Shown: piece after piece, positions 3,926 to 61,164 of the stretch
How positions within the stretch are numbered: position 1 is the stretch's first letter
How the letters are laid out: the number at the start of each line of letters is the position of its first letter
Assembly: GCF_006861775.1 (NCBI RefSeq)
Contig: NZ_VDGG01000002.1
Coordinates: 99,693-163,692, forward strand
DNA length: 64,000 nucleotides
From: Psychrobacillus soli
GTDB taxonomy: Bacteria; Bacillota; Bacilli; Bacillales_A; Planococcaceae
Direction of reading: 5' to 3'
Made by a program: the position numbers and the translations under genes
Notes under the pieces: generated by a model
What the model was told of the DNA's origin: nothing
What the model saw: the letters and a program-made list of their open reading frames with translations, nothing else
Databases searched by the model: none

Positions 3926-4115
3926 ATTAATTGTAGCGGAAGGACGGCGACTCGACCCGAGGCCAACAGGATGTTGGTCACGAAGGCGTTGCCACACGAT
4001 GGGGCGCTCTTAGCCTTTGTTCCTCTGTGAGACAGATGAACCCTCGCAAGCGAACGCACAGCATCGACGATGATTCATCGCTCACCCGGCGGAAAGCGTC
4101 CGCCCTCCAAGAACA
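3926..4115. repeat. Composite repeat: family A palindrome with a nested two-hairpin module
   Basis: Family A arms (GGCGACTC on the left; TCATCGCTCACCCGGCGGAA on the right) flank a two-hairpin module at 3961-4015 (family B). The same nesting is seen at 53518-53690. The rest of 3399-4154 shows no gene. Confidence 0.7.
3961..4015 (-). repeat. Two-hairpin module, copy 1 (family B)
   Basis: Hairpins at 3963-3977 (CCAAC-5 nt-GTTGG) and 3991-4005 (GCCAC-5 nt-GGGGC, one mismatch), separated by a 13-nt linker. Read on the minus strand the order is H1, linker, H2, as in the other copies. Confidence 0.75.
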
Positions 4116-5920: not shown

Positions 5921-5975
5921 TGAGCTTGCTCGATAAATTCCTCTAAAAAATCTGTGACATCCGCCGGAAGCTTTG

Positions 5976-6030
5976 GGCCATCAGGATGATGGTCACTTAG
6001 GCGTTGCCGCAGGACGCGGCGACCTTAGCC
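5976..6030 (-). repeat. Two-hairpin module, copy 2b
   Basis: On the minus strand H1 is GCCGC-GTCCT-GCGGC and H2 is CCATC-ATCCT-GATGG, with a 13-nt linker. The H2 stem differs from copies 1, 3 and 4 by a compensated base pair. Confidence 0.75.
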
Positions 6031-6144
6031 AAAGTTCCTTGATATTCAGCCAAGGTTGTGAGAACACTAAATTGTATGATGTTTTGCATTCATCTCACTA
6101 CTCATAGAAGCGGGAGACTTTTGCGGAATAATGTTAAAGCATTA

Positions 6145-12352: not shown

Positions 12353-13810
12353 TTATTTTTCTCTTAACAATGTGAGTATTCGCTTGAGATTGACCGCAAA
12401 CATCTCTGTGGCACCTTGTATTTCCATGCCAAATAGACCCGCAGATGATGCTATATCATACCCGTGTCCATGCTTCAATTCGCTATTCTTCGCTTCAATT
12501 TTATAGCGTGATTTAGCGATTTCTTTAAATTTAGTTGTCTGTTGAAACACCTCTTGTACGGTGTGTTCAGCCGACTTAATCGTCACAGAGTACGTTTTAC
12601 TTTTTGCGCCTTCTTTATAACATCCCTCTCGCATCGGGCAGACTTTGCACTTTTCGATATCAAAATAATACGTCTGGCTTTGATTTTTGTTCGTTCCTTT
12701 CCTACCAGTGCGTGCTTTTCTGGTAGCGAGGTGACCTGCTTTACAAACAAACATACCTGCATCTTTATTAAACTCAAATTTATCTTCTTCTTTTCGTGGG
12801 CCTTGCGTAAGAATTGGGTTCAACTTTGCGACGAGCGCCATTTCGTTTTCTTTCGTGTATTCAATATTTGCCTTTTCAGAGTAAGCTGCGTCCCCAATTA
12901 CCGTATCAATTTCCATACCTGTCTGTGTACTTTTTTCAATCAATTCTTGAAGATATTTCCCATCGCTTTTTTCTCCTGTTGTCACAATTGCAGCGGTAAT
13001 GATTCGTTCGTCGCTCATCGCGATATGTGTTTTGTATCCGAAGAAAGAAGAATCCGCAGTTTTATGGCCAACACGTGCATCATCATCTGCCGAATAGTGA
13101 AGCTGTTCATGGTAATCTTCCACTACCTCTTTTAAAACATTTAATTTTTCTTTTACAGCGGGAATATGGGCGATTTTTGGTTCGCTTTCGATGACTGCGA
13201 TTACTTCTTCACAGTAAGCTACTTCATCTTTTACTTCGTTAGAAGTGGTTTTCGGTGGGAATTTTTCTTTCATTGATTCATCAAATTGATAAACAGTTTT
13301 TCGAACGTTTTTGGATTTCTCTTGTAAAAATTCTTTCGGTGATTTTTGATTATAACGTGCTTTTGTATGGGTGGCATCTACAATAATAGTTGTACTTTTG
13401 ATAATTTTCTTTTCAAGTGCGATTTCAACTGTTTTCCCAATAAGCAGGTCTAATAAGCTTACGTCTTTAAGACGAAGCCTGCGGAATTTTGTAAGTGAAC
13501 TTGGATCGATAACTGGGTCTTCCGGTGCGATATCTAAGAAATATTTAAAGGACATATCGTATTTTGAACGTTCCACAATATCTATATCTGAAACATCAAA
13601 AATGGCCTTTAACAATAAATACTTAAACATACGAATCGGAGGAATCGCATTACGTCCATTGGCTAAACAGTATTTTGTTTTCAATTCTTCTTATATAAAT
13701 GTAACATCGACTAGCTCATTAATCTGACGGAGCATATTATCTTTTGGGACGACGATATCGTAAATCGCTATGAAAGGACTTAAGTTGAGCGTTTCTTGGT
13801 TTGAAATCAT
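12353..13810 (-). pseudogene. IS1182-family transposase with premature stop
   Basis: The full reading frame begins at ATG 13810 with MISNQETLNLSPF but meets TAA at 13691-13693 (codon 40). There the sequence reads TFI-stop-EELKTKYCL, where a Tyr or similar residue would be expected. After the stop the frame is intact for 443 codons with a DUF772-type N-terminal region, DDE residues in VDATHTKARY and VIGDAAYS, a Cys cluster (CKVCPMREGC) and YKIEAKNSELKHGHG with the final Glu. Re-initiation at TTG 13684 is possible but there is no evident ribosome site. Minus-strand gene, convergent with the upstream lipoprotein. Confidence 0.85.
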
Positions 13811-20335: not shown

Positions 20336-20626
20336 TTATAAAGTGGAATAATAAAGTGATAGAGATATAGAACAACAGCGTTAATGCGCCTGTCTCTGGC
20401 CCGATTTTTCACATGCGAACGGAATGGAATGACGCGCATAATAGGGATACTGCGCGGTAGTGCGTCAACTAGTGTCCGCTAGGATTTCCACTGCTGAGCG
20501 GACGCTTTCCGCCGGGTGAGCGATGAGCCATTCCCGTCGCTTAGGCGTACGTTTGAATGTCTCATTTTGCCCACTCATCCGGCAGGAGTCGCCGGCCATA
20601 GCTGTATACTTAACAAATTTCTAGTT
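20336..20626 (+). repeat. Left inverted repeat flanking the IS4 transposase (includes family A copy)
   Basis: Matches 22184-22450 in inverted orientation at about 75-80% by eye. It includes a full family A palindrome (20465-20612), an outer AATAGGGATACTGCGCGGTA block and an inner CCATAGCTGTATACTTA block. Confidence 0.7.
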
Positions 20627-20692: not shown

Positions 20693-22051
20693 ATGACAAA
20701 TTACGGTTTACTTCATTTGAAAAAATGTTTTGAGTTATTAAGTTCATCAAAAATGAATGAGCTTGCTCGAGAAACAGGCTTCATTCAACGCGAGCGTCAA
20801 ATAAAAGTCAGCAATTTTCTTCCTTTTCTTTTCCGGAATCACCAAAAAATGATTTCTGATACGTTACAAGAGCTTTGTCTAGATCTTCAATTACATCATA
20901 TTCCTATGACAAAAGCCGGTTTAAACAAGCGATTCAATAATCATTGTATCGACTTTTTACAAGCAGTTTGGGGCGAACTTTTTCAACTTCAATTTCGTGA
21001 AATACTGGCGAAAATGCCAATCAATAAAAAGTTCCCTTTCAAGCGTTTCCGTATCTTAGATGGAACCGCATTTAAATTACCGATAACTTACGAATTGATA
21101 TTTAAAGGGACGAGCGGCGCTGGGGTTAAGATTCAAGTCGAGTTCGATTATTTAAGTGGGCAGTTTTTATGGTTGACTTCAGAGGATGGAAAAGCGGCAG
21201 ATATCCACGCAGGATTCGAACGACTGGCCCATCTGGAGCCGAAAGATTTATGTGTACAGGATCTTGGTTACTATCATTTAGATTTGTTTGAAGAAATCGA
21301 ACGTCGTGATGCATACTTCCTTTCACGTGCACGTTTAGATACACAGTTCTTTTTAGAAGTCGCAAATCCACCTCGGCATCCAGATGGGAGATATGTAGAA
21401 AAACATCGCTATATTCAGGTGCATATGAGAGAGGAAATACAAGATTTGGAAAGAGGTTGTTCGAAAGAATGGCCGATTATGTATATTGGGCACCATAAAA
21501 AAATGGCTATGCGTTGTGTTATTTATCGTCATACAGAAAAACAAGAAGCGGAACATAAAAAAAGAATGGCCCGTAAACACCAGAAAAAAGCGAGACAGAC
21601 ACCAAAAGAGCATGTACTAGAGTTAGCTGGTGTAACGGTTTATTTAACAAATTTACCGGCGTCCGTTTCAGCAAAAGAGATCGGACATTTATACAGCTTA
21701 CGTTGGCAAATTGAATTATTGTTTAAAACGTGGAAATCACATTTGAAAGTACACCAAATTAAACAGGTAAAACCAGAACGGTGGCTTTGTCATTTTTACA
21801 CGCAATGTATTGTTCTTTTACTAAGCGTGTTAGGAATGGCCACCTTGAGAAAAATGATTTGGATGAAGTCCAAGAAACAATTGAGTGAAGACTTGACCAT
21901 TCGATTATTAAGCAAAAATATAAGTCGACTTTCAAAAGCTAGTGGTAAGAGTTTACAAACGTGGCGAAGCATTTGGAAGGACTTCATCCCAATTATAGAA
22001 GCAAACCAAATGAAAACTACTAAAGCGAACCACTGGACTCTATTTAGCTAA
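20693..22051 (+). CDS. IS4-family (IS231-type) transposase
   Basis: A 452-aa intact DDE transposase. First Asp in RILDGTAFKLP near residue 122, second in CVQDLGYYH, and the Glu in the IS4 signature YSLRWQIELLFKTWK, which fits Y(2)R(3)E(6)K exactly. The C-terminal tail is basic. ATG with AAAGGAGG 6 nt upstream, partly sequestered in a hairpin. No clear short terminal repeat was found; instead long inverted repeats flank the gene on both sides. Confidence 0.93.
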   Translation: MTNYGLLHLKKCFELLSSSKMNELARETGFIQRERQIKVSNFLPFLFRNHQKMISDTLQELCLDLQLHHIPMTKAGLNKRFNNHCIDFLQAVWGELFQLQFREILAKMPINKKFPFKRFRILDGTAFKLPITYELIFKGTSGAGVKIQVEFDYLSGQFLWLTSEDGKAADIHAGFERLAHLEPKDLCVQDLGYYHLDLFEEIERRDAYFLSRARLDTQFFLEVANPPRHPDGRYVEKHRYIQVHMREEIQDLERGCSKEWPIMYIGHHKKMAMRCVIYRHTEKQEAEHKKRMARKHQKKARQTPKEHVLELAGVTVYLTNLPASVSAKEIGHLYSLRWQIELLFKTWKSHLKVHQIKQVKPERWLCHFYTQCIVLLLSVLGMATLRKMIWMKSKKQLSEDLTIRLLSKNISRLSKASGKSLQTWRSIWKDFIPIIEANQMKTTKANHWTLFS

Positions 22052-22183: not shown

Positions 22184-22450
22184 AACTAGAAACAATTTTT
22201 CGTTATTTTTTATGGAGTATTTCTAAAGTATACAGCTATGGTCGACGACTCCTGCCGGATGAGTGAGCAAATGAGACATCCCTACGACGCCTAAGCGGCG
22301 GGGATGGCTCATCGCTCACCCGGCGGAAAGCGTTCGACTACAGCGAAAATCCTAGCGGTCACTTCCTTACCACGCAGTATCCCTATTATGTGGGACATTC
22401 TATTCATTTTTCCCACATACCATATCGGTTAGAGATAGGCGTTGGCGTTT
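22184..22450 (-). repeat. Right inverted repeat flanking the IS4 transposase (includes family A copy)
   Basis: Contains AAAGTATACAGCTATGG, the family A palindrome (22226-22372) and CGCAGTATCCCTATTATG, mirrored at the left flank. No ORF; the rest of 22052-22533 shows nothing else. Confidence 0.7.
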
Positions 22451-24049: not shown

Positions 24050-24235
24050 TCAAGCCCATTGAATGTCGAAGAACTCTGGCTAAAATCGCCGCGTCGTGCG
24101 GCAACGCCTGAGTGACCAACATCCTGTTGGCCCAAAGCCTCCGGCGGATGCCACAGATTTTGAAGGGAGTTAATTGAGCAAGCTCAATTCAAATCTGGGC
24201 GCAATCACGTCGAGTCGTGATTGATTATTGCTTTC
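24050..24235 (-). repeat. Long modular hairpin repeat (family B) in the glyS leader
   Basis: Same element as 5805-6045, inverted: hairpin CAATCAC-8 nt-GTGATTG (24202-24223), GAGCTTGCTCAA, CATCCGCCGGAGGC and one two-hairpin module at 24078-24138. It lies between the T-box terminator and the glyS ribosome site, so it should be transcribed as part of the glyS mRNA. Confidence 0.75.
24078..24138 (+). repeat. Two-hairpin module, copy 3
   Basis: H1 GCCGC-GTCGT-GCGGC (24088-24102), 13-nt linker AACGCCTGAGTGA, H2 CCAAC-ATCCT-GTTGG (24116-24130). Confidence 0.78.
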
Positions 24236-30163: not shown

Positions 30164-30189
30164 GCACCCGAAATTGCATCTTCGGGTGC
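30164..30189. repeat. Family D hairpin, copy 1
   Basis: GCACCCGAA-8 nt-TTCGGGTGC. Its 20-nt core is identical, in inverted orientation, to the core of 60409-60434. Confidence 0.7.
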
Positions 30190-30255: not shown

Positions 30256-30396
30256 GTTTGAGGAGGGCTACGGACAGACAAGCGCAATAAGATTACCGAG
30301 AAAAGAGTGGCTGGTCGTGACGTCAATCACGACCAGCCACTAAAAAAACAAACGGTAATAATATAGCTAAAAGTCTGTCCAAAGCCCCACGGAAAC
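30256..30396. repeat. Family C structured repeat, copy 1
   Basis: Folds as nested arms: GTTT/AAAC, GGGC/GCCC, GGACAGAC/GTCTGTCC, ATTACCG/CGGTAAT, then a perfect 15-bp terminal hairpin AGTGGCTGGTCGTGA-6 nt-complement. The 5' arm from CTACGGAC to ATTACCGA is shared with the copies at 60148 and 60655 while the terminal stem is not. Confidence 0.72.
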
Positions 30397-53252: not shown

Positions 53253-53280
53253 TTATATGTAGCGTGATATAGGGAAAGTG

Positions 53281-53530
53281 CGTCTTAGTCATTGTCATCT
53301 CAATCCAAGTAAACTTGCTATTTTAAGAATTGGTTGCTTTCACGAGCAATTTGGTTGCTCTCATGCTCATTTGATAGCTTTCGGAATAGAATAAGTCGCT
53401 TTAAATGACTGGAGTGTTGCTTTTATCCATTTATTGGATTCGCGCAGTCCAAATATTGTATAAGATTTTGTTTTTAGCGAGTCTATACTAAATAAGTAAG
53501 CAATTAATTCCTTTGATTTTCGCTGCAGGC
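53281..53530 (+). repeat. Repeat family E, copy 2, with iterons
   Basis: Inverted match to 3550-3790. Iterons ATTGGTTGCTTTC (53329), ATTTGGTTGCTCTC (53349) and ATTTGATAGCTTTC (53369) at a 20-21-bp period. Joins a family A repeat at GCTGCAGG. Confidence 0.65.
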
Positions 53531-53690
53531 GACGACTCCAACCGAGGCCAACAGGATGTTGGTCACGAAGGCGTTGCCACACGATGTGGCGCTCTTAGCC
53601 TTTGTTCCTCTGTTGAGCAAAATGAGACTTCACACGTACGCCTAAGCGGCGGCCCGGCAGCGAAAATCACAGCGGTCACCCGATAACGCT
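53518..53690. repeat. Composite repeat: family A palindrome with a nested two-hairpin module, copy 2
   Basis: CAGGCGACGACTCC on the left and AAATGAGACTTCACACGTACGCC on the right (continuing GGCAGCGAAAATCACAGCGG) are family A; the module at 53546-53600 interrupts them at the same place as in 3926-4115. No gene is seen in 53253-53739. Confidence 0.7.
53546..53600 (-). repeat. Two-hairpin module, copy 4
   Basis: On the minus strand H1 is GCCAC-ATCGT-GTGGC and H2 is CCAAC-ATCCT-GTTGG with a 13-nt linker. Confidence 0.78.
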
Positions 53691-59464: not shown

Positions 59465-60103
59465 ATGTTAAACATACGTAGCTATCCACTAGGATTTATT
59501 CAAACTAACTGTTATATTATTTCGAATGCGGAAAAAGAGTGTTTAATCTTTGATCCAGGTGGAGAAGGAGAAAAACTAATAAGTGAAGTTCGCAGGTTAA
59601 ATTTGAAACCACTTGCAATACTTTTAACACATGCTCATTTCGATCATATTGGAGCAGTGGAAGATGTACGAGAAGCTTTTCGTATACCTGTATACATTCA
59701 TACTGCGGAAAAGAAATGGTTGCTTGATCCGTCTAAAAACGGTTCTGCAAAGTATGCCGAAATTCCATCTATTATTTGTAAAGCTGCGGATAATATTTTA
59801 GAAAATGAATCGAATTTGGCAATTGGTAGTTTTGAAATGCAGTTATTGCATACACCAGGGCATTCCCCAGGGAGCATAACTTATTATTTTGCAGATGCAG
59901 AATTTGCGATAGTAGGAGATACTCTGTTTCAAAATAGTATTGGGCGTACTGACTTACCAAGCGGCAATCAGGCAGAATTGATGAAATCCATTCATACGAA
60001 GCTGTTAGCATTACCGGAGTCTACAATCATTTATCCAGGTCATGGGCCAGCGACAACAATCGAGGATGAAATGGAGTCCAATCCATTTTTAAATGGATTC
60101 TAA
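59465..60103 (+). CDS. yqgX: MBL-fold hydrolase YqgX (glyoxalase II-like)
   Basis: A 212-aa metallo-beta-lactamase-fold enzyme. Metal motif THAHFDHIGA near residue 57, then HTPGHSPGS near 130, GDTLF near 150 and YPGHGP near 194. Likely a thioester or small-metabolite hydrolase; bacilli YqgX is listed as glyoxalase II-like. RBS GAGGTG 7 nt before ATG. Confidence 0.92.
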   Translation: MLNIRSYPLGFIQTNCYIISNAEKECLIFDPGGEGEKLISEVRRLNLKPLAILLTHAHFDHIGAVEDVREAFRIPVYIHTAEKKWLLDPSKNGSAKYAEIPSIICKAADNILENESNLAIGSFEMQLLHTPGHSPGSITYYFADAEFAIVGDTLFQNSIGRTDLPSGNQAELMKSIHTKLLALPESTIIYPGHGPATTIEDEMESNPFLNGF

Positions 60104-60147
60104 CAAGAAAAGCGAAAGAATACCATTTTATATTTGTGCGTTTTCGG

Positions 60148-60252
60148 TTCGCTTAGGACGAAATGATCGCTACATCATTACCGAGGTCTAAGTTTAGCAG
60201 GAAGTGCCTGCGTCAGTTCCTGCTAAACTATTTTCGATAATCTTGAAGTGAA
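60148..60252. repeat. Family C structured repeat, copy 2 (short)
   Basis: 5' arm CTTAGGACGAAATGATCG... to ATTACCGAG, terminal 12-bp hairpin GTTTAGCAGGAA/TTCCTGCTAAAC, then TCGATAAT (pairs with ATTACCGA, one mismatch) and AAGTGAA (pairs with TTCGCTT). Confidence 0.68.
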
Positions 60253-60268
60253 TAATTAAAGGAGCATA

Positions 60269-60323
60269 GTCTAAGTACGCGACATCGTGTCGCAACGACT
60301 GTGTGACCTGCATCGTGCAGGCC
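60269..60323 (+). repeat. Two-hairpin module, copy 5 (six modules in all)
   Basis: H1 GCGAC-ATCGT-GTCGC (60279-60293), 13-nt linker, H2 CCTGC-ATCGT-GCAGG (60307-60321). Both stems differ from copy 3 by compensated pairs while GTCTAAG, loops and linker are retained. Confidence 0.78.
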
Positions 60324-60408
60324 TCCGTCACGCACCTACAATGTTTAAAAGAAAAGGGCGATTTCTTTTCAAAATAAAAGAATAGCCACCCCTCTATTCA
60401 TTGTGCAA

Positions 60409-60434
60409 GTGCCCGAAGATGCAATTTCGGGCAC
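60409..60434. repeat. Family D hairpin, copy 2
   Basis: GTGCCCGAA-8 nt-TTCGGGCAC; its 20-nt core is the exact reverse complement of the core at 30167-30186. Confidence 0.7.
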
Positions 60435-60564
60435 TCTATCACTTTCGATCAAGTGTTCCTTGCTTATTTTTTGCAAAGTGAGCGCGGGCAACATGGTGAC
60501 GCTATATTGAAGAGGGACATTTCCTTCTAATCGAAAAGGTGGAAATACGATAGAAAAGGACTGA

Positions 60565-60595
60565 GCAGCCAAAATTAGATCTTTGGCTGCTTTTA
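60565..60595 (+). terminator. Orphan terminator-like hairpin
   Basis: GCAGCCAAA-8 nt-TTTGGCTGC followed by TTTTA. No ORF ends upstream of it, so it may end a small RNA or be a relic. Confidence 0.5.
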
Positions 60596-60654
60596 TCTAG
60601 CTAGGAAAGTGGGCTATTCTTTAGTTTCCCAAAGCTTTAGCACTTTGATTACCC

Positions 60655-60796
60655 GTGCTTTTGGAGATCTACGGACGAACGACTACCACACGATTACCGA
60701 AAAAATACGTAAGGATGCGAAAAAGTCGCATCCCTACGTATAAAGAAGTCTCGGTCATAATGTAGAACTGGTTCCTTTCAAAGACTCCAAAAGCAC
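60655..60796. repeat. Family C structured repeat, copy 3
   Basis: Outer GTGCTTTTGGAG pairs with CTCCAAAAGCAC (12 bp), then GATTACCGA with TCGGTCATA, then a 15-bp terminal hairpin TACGTAAGGATGCGA-5 nt-partner with one mismatch. Same length (142 nt) and 5' arm as copy 1 but a different terminal stem. The whole stretch 60104-60879 has no credible gene. Confidence 0.72.
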
Positions 60797-60879
60797 CTAT
60801 ACATAAAGTTCCTATTGTGTTAACGCAATTTGCTGGTTACTTTTAATTAGTCAAAACGTGTGTTTTTTTCTAACAATAG

Positions 60880-60908
60880 AAAAAAGCAGCTCAACATGAG
60901 CTGCTTTT
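60880..60908 (-). terminator. Terminator of yqgY
   Basis: AGCAGCTCA-3 nt-TGAGCTGCT with T-run on the minus strand. Confidence 0.85.
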
Positions 60909-60921
60909 CTTCTTTGGACGA

Positions 60922-61164
60922 TTAATGTCCAGCGCCTGGTACGTGCATAAAAGTAGTGTAGTATGTAAAACCTGCGAAGAAGAACATTAAGTAAGCCCCG
61001 AAGATATACATATACATACGTTCAGAAAGGTTTAAAAACCCTAAAAGAAGGAATAATCCCGTATTTGCTAGAAATATTAGAGATGCTTCTGACATACCAC
61101 CTAAATAAAAGAAAACTGCGAAAATCCCTGTCCAGAAAGCCATCACTTTATACATATTGCCCAT
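60922..61164 (-). CDS. yqgY: DUF2626 small membrane protein YqgY
   Basis: An 80-aa protein starting MGNMYKVMAFWTGIFAVFFY, with three membrane segments and ending FMHVPGAGH. Matches YqgY (DUF2626); function unknown. AAAGGAGGG 8 nt before this ATG decides the start. Confidence 0.85.
   Translation of the reverse strand: MGNMYKVMAFWTGIFAVFFYLGGMSEASLIFLANTGLFLLLGFLNLSERMYMYIFGAYLMFFFAGFTYYTTFMHVPGAGH

Follow-up and report, generated by a model that had tools for sequence, protein, structure and literature searches.

Hairpin repeats of Psychrobacillus as putative terminator-like end modules of a non-coding MITE with IS4Sa-type ends

Hairpin modules and a decayed composite in the window

The stretch of DNA analysed here (the window) is 64 kb long and is carried by contig C14 of the Psychrobacillus soli genome (G000); positions given without a contig are those of the whole window. 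An initial annotation had pointed out three stretches (30256-30396, 60148-60252 and 60655-60796), named family C, with a common 5' arm, self-complementary tips and pairing outer arms, and on direct reading of the sequence all of these are present. The shared arm GGAC...ATTACCGA is found in each of the three, and the outer arms of the third copy read GTGCTTTTGGAG at 60655-60666 and CTCCAAAAGCAC at 60785-60796. The pattern GGACN{10,26}ATTACCGA has four matches in the window, three of which are the family C copies, against 0.04 expected from dinucleotide shuffles. The three copies represent three subfamilies (C1, C2 and C3), and the orientation of C2 is opposite to that of C1 and C3; this reversal is hidden because the module is itself an imperfect palindrome, both arms of which read GGAC...ATTACCG inward. 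The features of interest are the following.

30164-30189, + strand: small hairpin h upstream of C1 (GCACCCGAA-ATTGCATC-TTCGGGTGC), from the sequence and a loop and stem scan
30262-30394, + strand: C module of subfamily C1 (covariance model match G000:C14:129954-130088:+, 94.6 bits)
30306-30341, no strand assigned: tip hairpin of C1 (AGTGGCTGGTCGTGA ... TCACGACCAGCCACT; words at positions 30306 and 30327)
60101-60862, + strand: decayed composite, left terminal inverted repeat lost and right one degenerate (homology to the complete copy on G000:C80)
60140-60253, - strand: C module of subfamily C2, the left end module (nhmmer and covariance model match G000:C14:159832-159957:-)
60192-60228, no strand assigned: tip hairpin of C2 (GTTTAGCAGGAA ... 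TTCCTGCTAAAC; words at positions 60192 and 60217)
60255-60321, + strand: Bacillaceae-1 RNA (RF01690), between C2 and the middle part (cmscan 72 bits, gathering score 35)
60409-60435, - strand: small hairpin h1, whose loop reads ATTGCATC on the - strand (loop match 60416-60426, - strand; stem statistics)
60564-60591, + strand: small hairpin h2, inverted partner of h1, terminator-like on the - strand; its loop is mutated here and intact in other copies
60655-60796, + strand: C module of subfamily C3, the right end module (60663-60798 as a subfamily member; covariance model match G000:C14:160355-160486:+, 113 bits)
60695-60741, - strand: terminator-like hairpin of C3, 16 pairs with tail TTTTTCGGTA (terminator scan)
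60845-60862, - strand: degenerate right terminal inverted repeat (AATTAGTCAAAACGTGTG on the + strand; 4 of 15 fixed positions off consensus)

C2 and C3 belong together as the two ends of one decayed composite of about 760 bp (60101-60862). A nearly whole second copy lies on contig C80 of the same genome (query 2-723, 83% identity), and partial copies are many. The complete copy at G000:C80 measures 800 bp; it ends in CACACGTGTTGATTAACC and CACGTCTGTTGATTAACC and is flanked by GAATGCTAT and GGATGCTAT. As put together from parts of a 14-copy alignment and from the reading of individual copies, the order within the composite is left inverted repeat, C module (-), h hairpin, middle part, inverted h hairpin, C module (+) and right inverted repeat. 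The window composite lacks the left end and begins right at the stop codon that closes ORF 59465-60103 upstream of it, and it carries no transposase gene, there being no ORF of 80 amino acids or more between 60104 and 60921. A compact form of 299 bp has one module and both ends (L045), and in one cluster of G000 (L023) a left part of C1 type is fused to a right part of C3 type with an IS4-type end. The h hairpins form inverted pairs within the composite, and their ATTGCATC loop is constant while the stem is variable; over the collected loci, in which these elements abound, 46 of 210 ATTGCATC/AATGCATC sites have a stem of 8 pairs or more, compared with 0/34, 0/50 and 0/30 for three control words.

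The Bacillaceae-1 RNA appears to be a discrete insert. Composite copies on contigs C69 and C24 match the query to position 158 and again from 225, so that this RNA is skipped; several copies of the composite other than that of the window are without it. The impression of an insert extends to L025, L030, L014 and G001 loci among L324-L334, and in several G001 copies Bacillaceae-1-like sequence breaks into an h hairpin; from where it is found, this Rfam "sRNA" looks like something that behaves as a mobile repeat. Further intergenic repeat families occupy 3945-4103, 5960-6043, 20422-20618, 22219-22405, 24064-24132 and 53268-53652 of the window, and several of them overlap Bacillaceae-1 RNA matches. 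On contig C38 of G000, locus L098 has tandem right-end-like motifs, CATTCGTG... and CACGTCTG..., with repeated ATAAAATAG around them, and this double right end is perhaps the remnant of a second insertion.

We built a covariance model on an alignment (A1) of 67 C modules, which are 69 full-length modules minus three (two of L096 and one of L145) plus C2 of the window. Instead of the three copies originally counted, the window's genome has the module in at least 42 places, in 32 clusters (70 rows merged at E <= 0.001, with 150 of 1905 candidates scored), and E-values reach 8e-29. At E <= 1e-5, with strict filters by which weak matches are lost and at most 12 candidates scored per genome, it occurs in at least 37 of 261 genomes of the order; these comprise all 19 Psychrobacillus genomes, 7 genomes of a second genus and 11 of a third, that is, three of the order's 19 genera. 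In three loci of G015 (L185, L177 and L125) the tip of the module is shortened and its stem lacks part of one arm. The C1 module of L018 (G000:C35:9108-9285) has its tip duplicated and inverted around an N, which may reflect misassembly at a palindrome.

Ends, target duplications and a partner insertion sequence

Better-preserved relatives of the window composite have terminal inverted repeats (TIRs) of the form CACNNNTGTTGATTAACC and 9-bp target duplications (TSDs). We refer to these non-coding elements as the MITE; those in which both a C module and a TSD are seen span 253-800 bp. For a statistical comparison, all inverted CACNNNTGTTGATTAACC pairs with up to 3 mismatches each and 230-1300 bp apart were taken from the collected loci (n=50, including five copies of an insertion sequence (IS) and ten pairs with neither C module nor IS, and perhaps also some pairings across elements). 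The flanks agree in at least 8 of 9 positions in 25 of these 50 pairs, 16 of them at 9/9, compared with a mean of 0.7 and a maximum of 5 in 1000 trials in which the right flanks were dealt at random; the remaining 25 show no clear TSD. By kind, a duplication is seen in 16 of 35 pairs with a C module, in 5/5 IS copies (two of which, L289 and L293, probably represent a single insertion recorded twice in related entries) and in 4/10 others. The bases immediately beyond the 9 bp agree in just 6 and 4 of the 25 pairs, and thus the duplication is 9 bp long.

At up to one mismatch, the end motif is present in 11 of the 19 Psychrobacillus genomes, with 11, 24 and 22 copies in G000, G003 and G015, and in 11 of 12 genomes of two other genera, with 93 copies in G204 and 91 in G248. 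The same motif read backwards, as a control, gave 6 matches in five genomes (G001, G008, G009, G012 and G018), none in G000, G003 and G015, and none in any of the 12 genomes outside Psychrobacillus. Some single matches to the end motif, for example in G010 and G011, fall within reading frames and look like chance. G009 also contains elements with the ends CACNNNTGTTGATTATCC (L176 and L181; also L161 and L170), and two elements so ended, of 930 and 703 bp, have 9-bp duplications and no C module by the profile used.

Occupied and empty versions of one site were compared over the 19 genomes. In the gap between two genes that we take, from their translated ends, to be holA and rpsT, G000 and G005 carry an element with GAAATAAAT flanking it on both sides, and G013 has a 0.4-kb remnant with two blocks that match the composite. 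Both flanks were found in 17 genomes (G012 and G007, in which the left flank was not found, are not comparable), and the 14 others of these have no composite match in the gap, which measures 12-59 bp in G008, G015, G009, G017, G014 and G018; in the remaining eight its length is 62-400 bp.

The C module also occurs apart from these ends. Many C1-type modules are without IS4-type ends, for example 11 aligned copies from G001, a genome with zero end-motif matches at up to one mismatch, and other repeat families seem to be nested at the ends of C1-type repeats. The C module is therefore not confined to the MITE, and is older or wider than it.

A Pfam PF01609 search of nine genomes, together with an end-motif scan of viral contigs, led to an IS with the same ends. 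The intact copy (L259) is in G246, a genome of a related genus with 57 end-motif matches; it is 1258 bp long and has the ends CACGCGTGTTGATTAACC and CACGCGTGTTGATTAACT, the TSD CCTTGATAG and one 375-aa frame. The product of this frame matches NCBIfam NF033592 (IS4 family transposase) with 200.9 bits, the cut-off being 115, and PF01609 (DDE_Tnp_1) with 100.7 bits over profile positions 3-200 of 200; a YREK motif (YKSRWAIETFFRWIK, spaced Y-2-R-3-E-6-K) was read by eye in the translation. Table 1 of PMC2266710 gives the IS4Sa subgroup as 1150-1750 bp long, with ends CA------T and repeats of 8-10 bp. Insofar as that table describes the subgroup, the size of L259 (1258 bp), its ends CACGCGTGT, its 9-bp repeats and its YREK motif all agree with it, and L259 fits as a putative member of this subgroup of the IS4 family. 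What it has in common with the window element is the ends of about 18 bp alone; the window element is without a transposase and has other interior modules. The partner IS may already bear a name in ISfinder.

Three TIR-bounded IS copies of 1133-1260 bp on viral contigs (L289, L292 and L293, from IMG/VR), with CACNNNTGTTGATTAACC-type ends, are flanked by 9-bp duplications, and their transposase-like frames are either broken or split. When 35 genomes were searched with the L259 protein, 13 gave some match, and G246 alone had an intact frame with matching ends; the 19 Psychrobacillus genomes, that of the window included, yielded no intact transposase of the L259 type with such ends. Other complete IS4-type frames, with 26-35% identity, are present in G009, G102, G214, G246 and G204, and the loci available for them (for 30 of 40 matches) do not show these ends; IS relics with one or both ends lie in G214, G144, G232, G181 and G015. 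Within the window's genome, contig C48 has a broken transposase relative, 41-42% identical, with no matching ends seen. Two frames of the window (20693-22051 on the + strand and 12353-13684 on the - strand; G000:C14:120730-121515 and 112081-112776) match PF01609, and no CACNNNTGTTGATTAACC-type ends were seen around them (L262, L274). At L307 (G102:C246) an IS4-type transposase, 33% identical, lies between ends CACTAGTGTTGCAT..., and we read it as a related IS with different inner ends. An autonomous element was also sought as a TIR pair 2-3 kb apart, and the ten regions obtained consisted of other frames and separate elements, with no transposase frame recognised. No solved structure was found for an L259-type transposase, and distant-mode searches gave no match in phages (query window:60500-60870) or in plasmids (query L208:1240-1760).

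Covariation and one-sided T-runs of the C module

The terminal stems had been described as unrelated and swapped between copies. When more modules are aligned, the tips align instead, with an apex GAC(2-5 nt)GTC common to 49 of the 67 modules in A1. The 45 pairs of A1, in figures that kinship among the copies inflates, are formed in 88.7% of cells (78.0% with partners shuffled, 30-44% with partners slid), 305 cells are changed on both sides (102 shuffled), and the covariation score is 0.329 (0.154 shuffled). Pairs with double changes number 29 against 23.6 in the shuffles, 3 of 500 of which reached the observed value, and in the other four of five measures 0 of 500 did so. The outer tip stem (helix 5) is 94.4% paired, and each of its 11 pairs has double changes that keep the pairing; the four outer helices pair more weakly, at 83-88%.

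At least 5 T among the 8 nucleotides after the tip are found on the - strand in 59 of the 67 A1 modules and on the + strand in 2/67. With a second tip-finding method, which has a stricter boundary, the asymmetry stays and the share falls, to 40/67 vs 1/67 in A1 and 33/70 vs 2/70 in modules outside A1, so that the T-run is met in 73 of 137 units; modules falling short of it number 8/67 by the first method, and 27/67 and 37/70 by the second. In the window, the terminator scan finds the 16-pair stem of C3, followed by TTTTTCGGTA on the - strand, and the same scan lists no terminator for C2. Modules that lie close together show the order "-+" in each of the 10 such clusters of the window's genome and in 21 of 26 pairs over the collected loci (three are "++" and two "--"). 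In this order, a transcript that comes in from either side would meet the T-run on its own strand, and thus a T-run on one strand, together with inward-pointing pairs, makes the modules look like paired inward-facing intrinsic terminators. We infer that C modules are intrinsic terminators that would stop transcription from either neighbour.

No C unit lies within an ORF longer than 150 amino acids. By simple ORF calls, 32 of 61 units are between tandem genes, 20 between convergent and 4 between divergent genes, and 5 with no gene on one side are unclassified (the 61 come from 69 modules, second modules of the same element and L145 being left out, and two elements are counted twice). The 54 gene neighbours in the window are 35 tandem, 9 convergent and 10 divergent. 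The 27 clusters in the window's genome divide into 17 tandem, 8 convergent and 2 divergent (p 0.018, on a baseline of the intergenic lengths of the window alone, 2690 bp convergent and 4101 bp divergent). At tandem sites the predicted terminator faces the incoming gene in 18/32 units and away from it in 14/32, and so has no bias.

Interpretation and comparison with known systems

We consider it probable (about 0.78) that the hairpins of family C are the end modules in a non-coding MITE of modular build, with the ends of an IS4Sa-type IS, and that the modules act as inward terminators. As far as sequence comparison can tell, the ends of the MITE match those of the IS, 9-bp TSDs are found with both, occupied and empty sites exist, and the IS is intact in a related genus; the suggestion of a hairpin-cassette mobile element made at the outset holds in substance, with TIRs, 9-bp TSDs, empty sites and an IS with the same ends. 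Since those ends are the ends of an IS4Sa-type IS, its transposase would move the MITE in trans, acting on the inverted-repeat ends, and transposition by such an enzyme is what we propose. The usual composite has two inverted C modules at its ends and two inverted h hairpins between them; in most modules a T-run follows the long tip hairpin, and on one strand only, which is the strand that transcripts from the adjacent flank read. The modules would in this way stop transcription entering from either neighbour, and such termination could make it tolerable, or even useful, for the element to insert downstream of a gene. Within the window's genome the element looks like a fossil, because the window copy is without its left end and the only relatives of the L259-type transposase found there are broken and without matching ends.

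The covariation by itself could come from arm-to-arm copying of DNA hairpins without selection on RNA. On this account the element would be a plain MITE of foldback DNA, in which template switching or cruciform repair keeps the arms complementary and the covariation is mechanical, with no selected RNA role, and the covariation does peak in the near-perfect tip (helix 5), where copying from arm to arm would be easiest. However, such copying predicts no strand asymmetry, and the one-sided T-run (59/67 vs 2/67, and 33/70 vs 2/70 in other units) therefore counts against it, as does the greater frequency of the elements at convergent than at divergent sites; we regard foldback DNA as an unlikely explanation. 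We give still less credit to the h-C core being a trans-acting structured ncRNA with a conserved ATTGCATC loop, picked up by several mobile elements, which seems to us quite improbable. Such an RNA would suit h hairpins that keep their loop while the stem changes, and C modules that are found both with and without IS4-type ends, but a consensus scan of 60080-60930 found zero promoter-like sites (1.5 in shuffles), and high copy number, decay and truncation are more like a repeat than a gene. No Rfam family reaches its gathering score over the C module, RF01690 alone doing so, as a separate insert beside it; four sub-gathering matches near 60709-60952 (E 0.05-0.4) were taken as chance. The tip words match nowhere else in the window either: each, with 1-2 mismatches allowed, matches only its own two arms, and within the window the guide or target function once envisaged for the tips thus gains no support. 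The early idea of a structured RNA is supported in a narrow sense, by the one-sided terminator signature and the strong covariation.

It could also be supposed that the arm is common by coincidence and that the tips are unrelated repeats, so that the family would be a matter of nested insertions or of three chance-like copies. One neighbouring insert does exist, the Bacillaceae-1 RNA that adjoins C2 at 60255-60321, but the tips themselves are homologous and covarying, and since the genome has the module in at least 42 places, with E-values as low as 8e-29, this supposition has practically no probability left. Alongside the MITE with inward terminators that we prefer, there is the wider and rather doubtful, if still conceivable, idea that the h-C unit is a self-contained terminator module exchanged among several mobile elements, found in IS4Sa-type MITEs and also in C1-type repeats that are without such ends, some of which are hybrids. 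On this idea, symmetric inward-facing terminators would make each insertion transcriptionally inert, so that copies could accumulate where genes end and come to serve the host as its own terminators.

The preferred reading ties structured non-coding repeats that all searched Psychrobacillus genomes contain to one transposon mechanism and to a nameable type of transposase. Should the terminators work, the MITE would clearly exemplify a transposable element equipped with paired insulators, with a bearing on how repeats spread without harm to their neighbours and on how genes gain new 3' ends. Covarying hairpins in genomes such as these, the Rfam "sRNA" insert included, may be mobile DNA.

A search of the open-licence literature turned up no article that deals with an element of this kind in these bacteria. 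That MITEs are moved by insertion sequences with the same ends is well known. Mobile insertion cassettes, which are non-autonomous and have the ends of IS231 (IS4 family), carry passenger genes, whereas the family C element carries none. MITEAba12 of Acinetobacter, a 113-bp element whose partner is ISAba12, has two outward-facing promoters and no predicted terminator in the parts of PMC6382973 that describe it. By that description it resembles the family C MITE in being non-coding, in its short TIRs and 9-bp duplications, and in having been assigned to its IS by its ends, with identity confined to the TIRs (PMC6382973); family C elements with a TSD differ from it in being 253-800 bp long and modular and in having inward terminator-like hairpins. 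Insertion sequences are said, in a passage of PMC9208149, to supply terminators to neighbouring genes. The bcr1 repeat of the Bacillus cereus group, structured and about 150 bp long, has mobile element characteristics according to the title of the original report, as cited in PMC2267715; compared by description only, bcr1 and family C are both structured Bacillales repeats, in different host groups. Two repeats of Streptococcus pneumoniae treated in PMC3049150 come near to family C, again by their descriptions only. SPRITE is, like the family C element, a terminator-like mobile repeat; it is enriched at the 3' ends of genes, its ends are AAAA/TTTT, and attempts to define a TSD for it did not succeed (PMC3049150). 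BOX shares with family C a modular and highly structured make-up with TIRs and TSDs, in a size range of 67-637 bp (PMC3049150). Unlike the family C element, neither is described in the relevant parts of that paper as having paired inverted terminator modules. We class the element among the MITEs, with ends of the IS4Sa type; what is new in it is the exchangeable, paired, inward-facing putative terminator modules.
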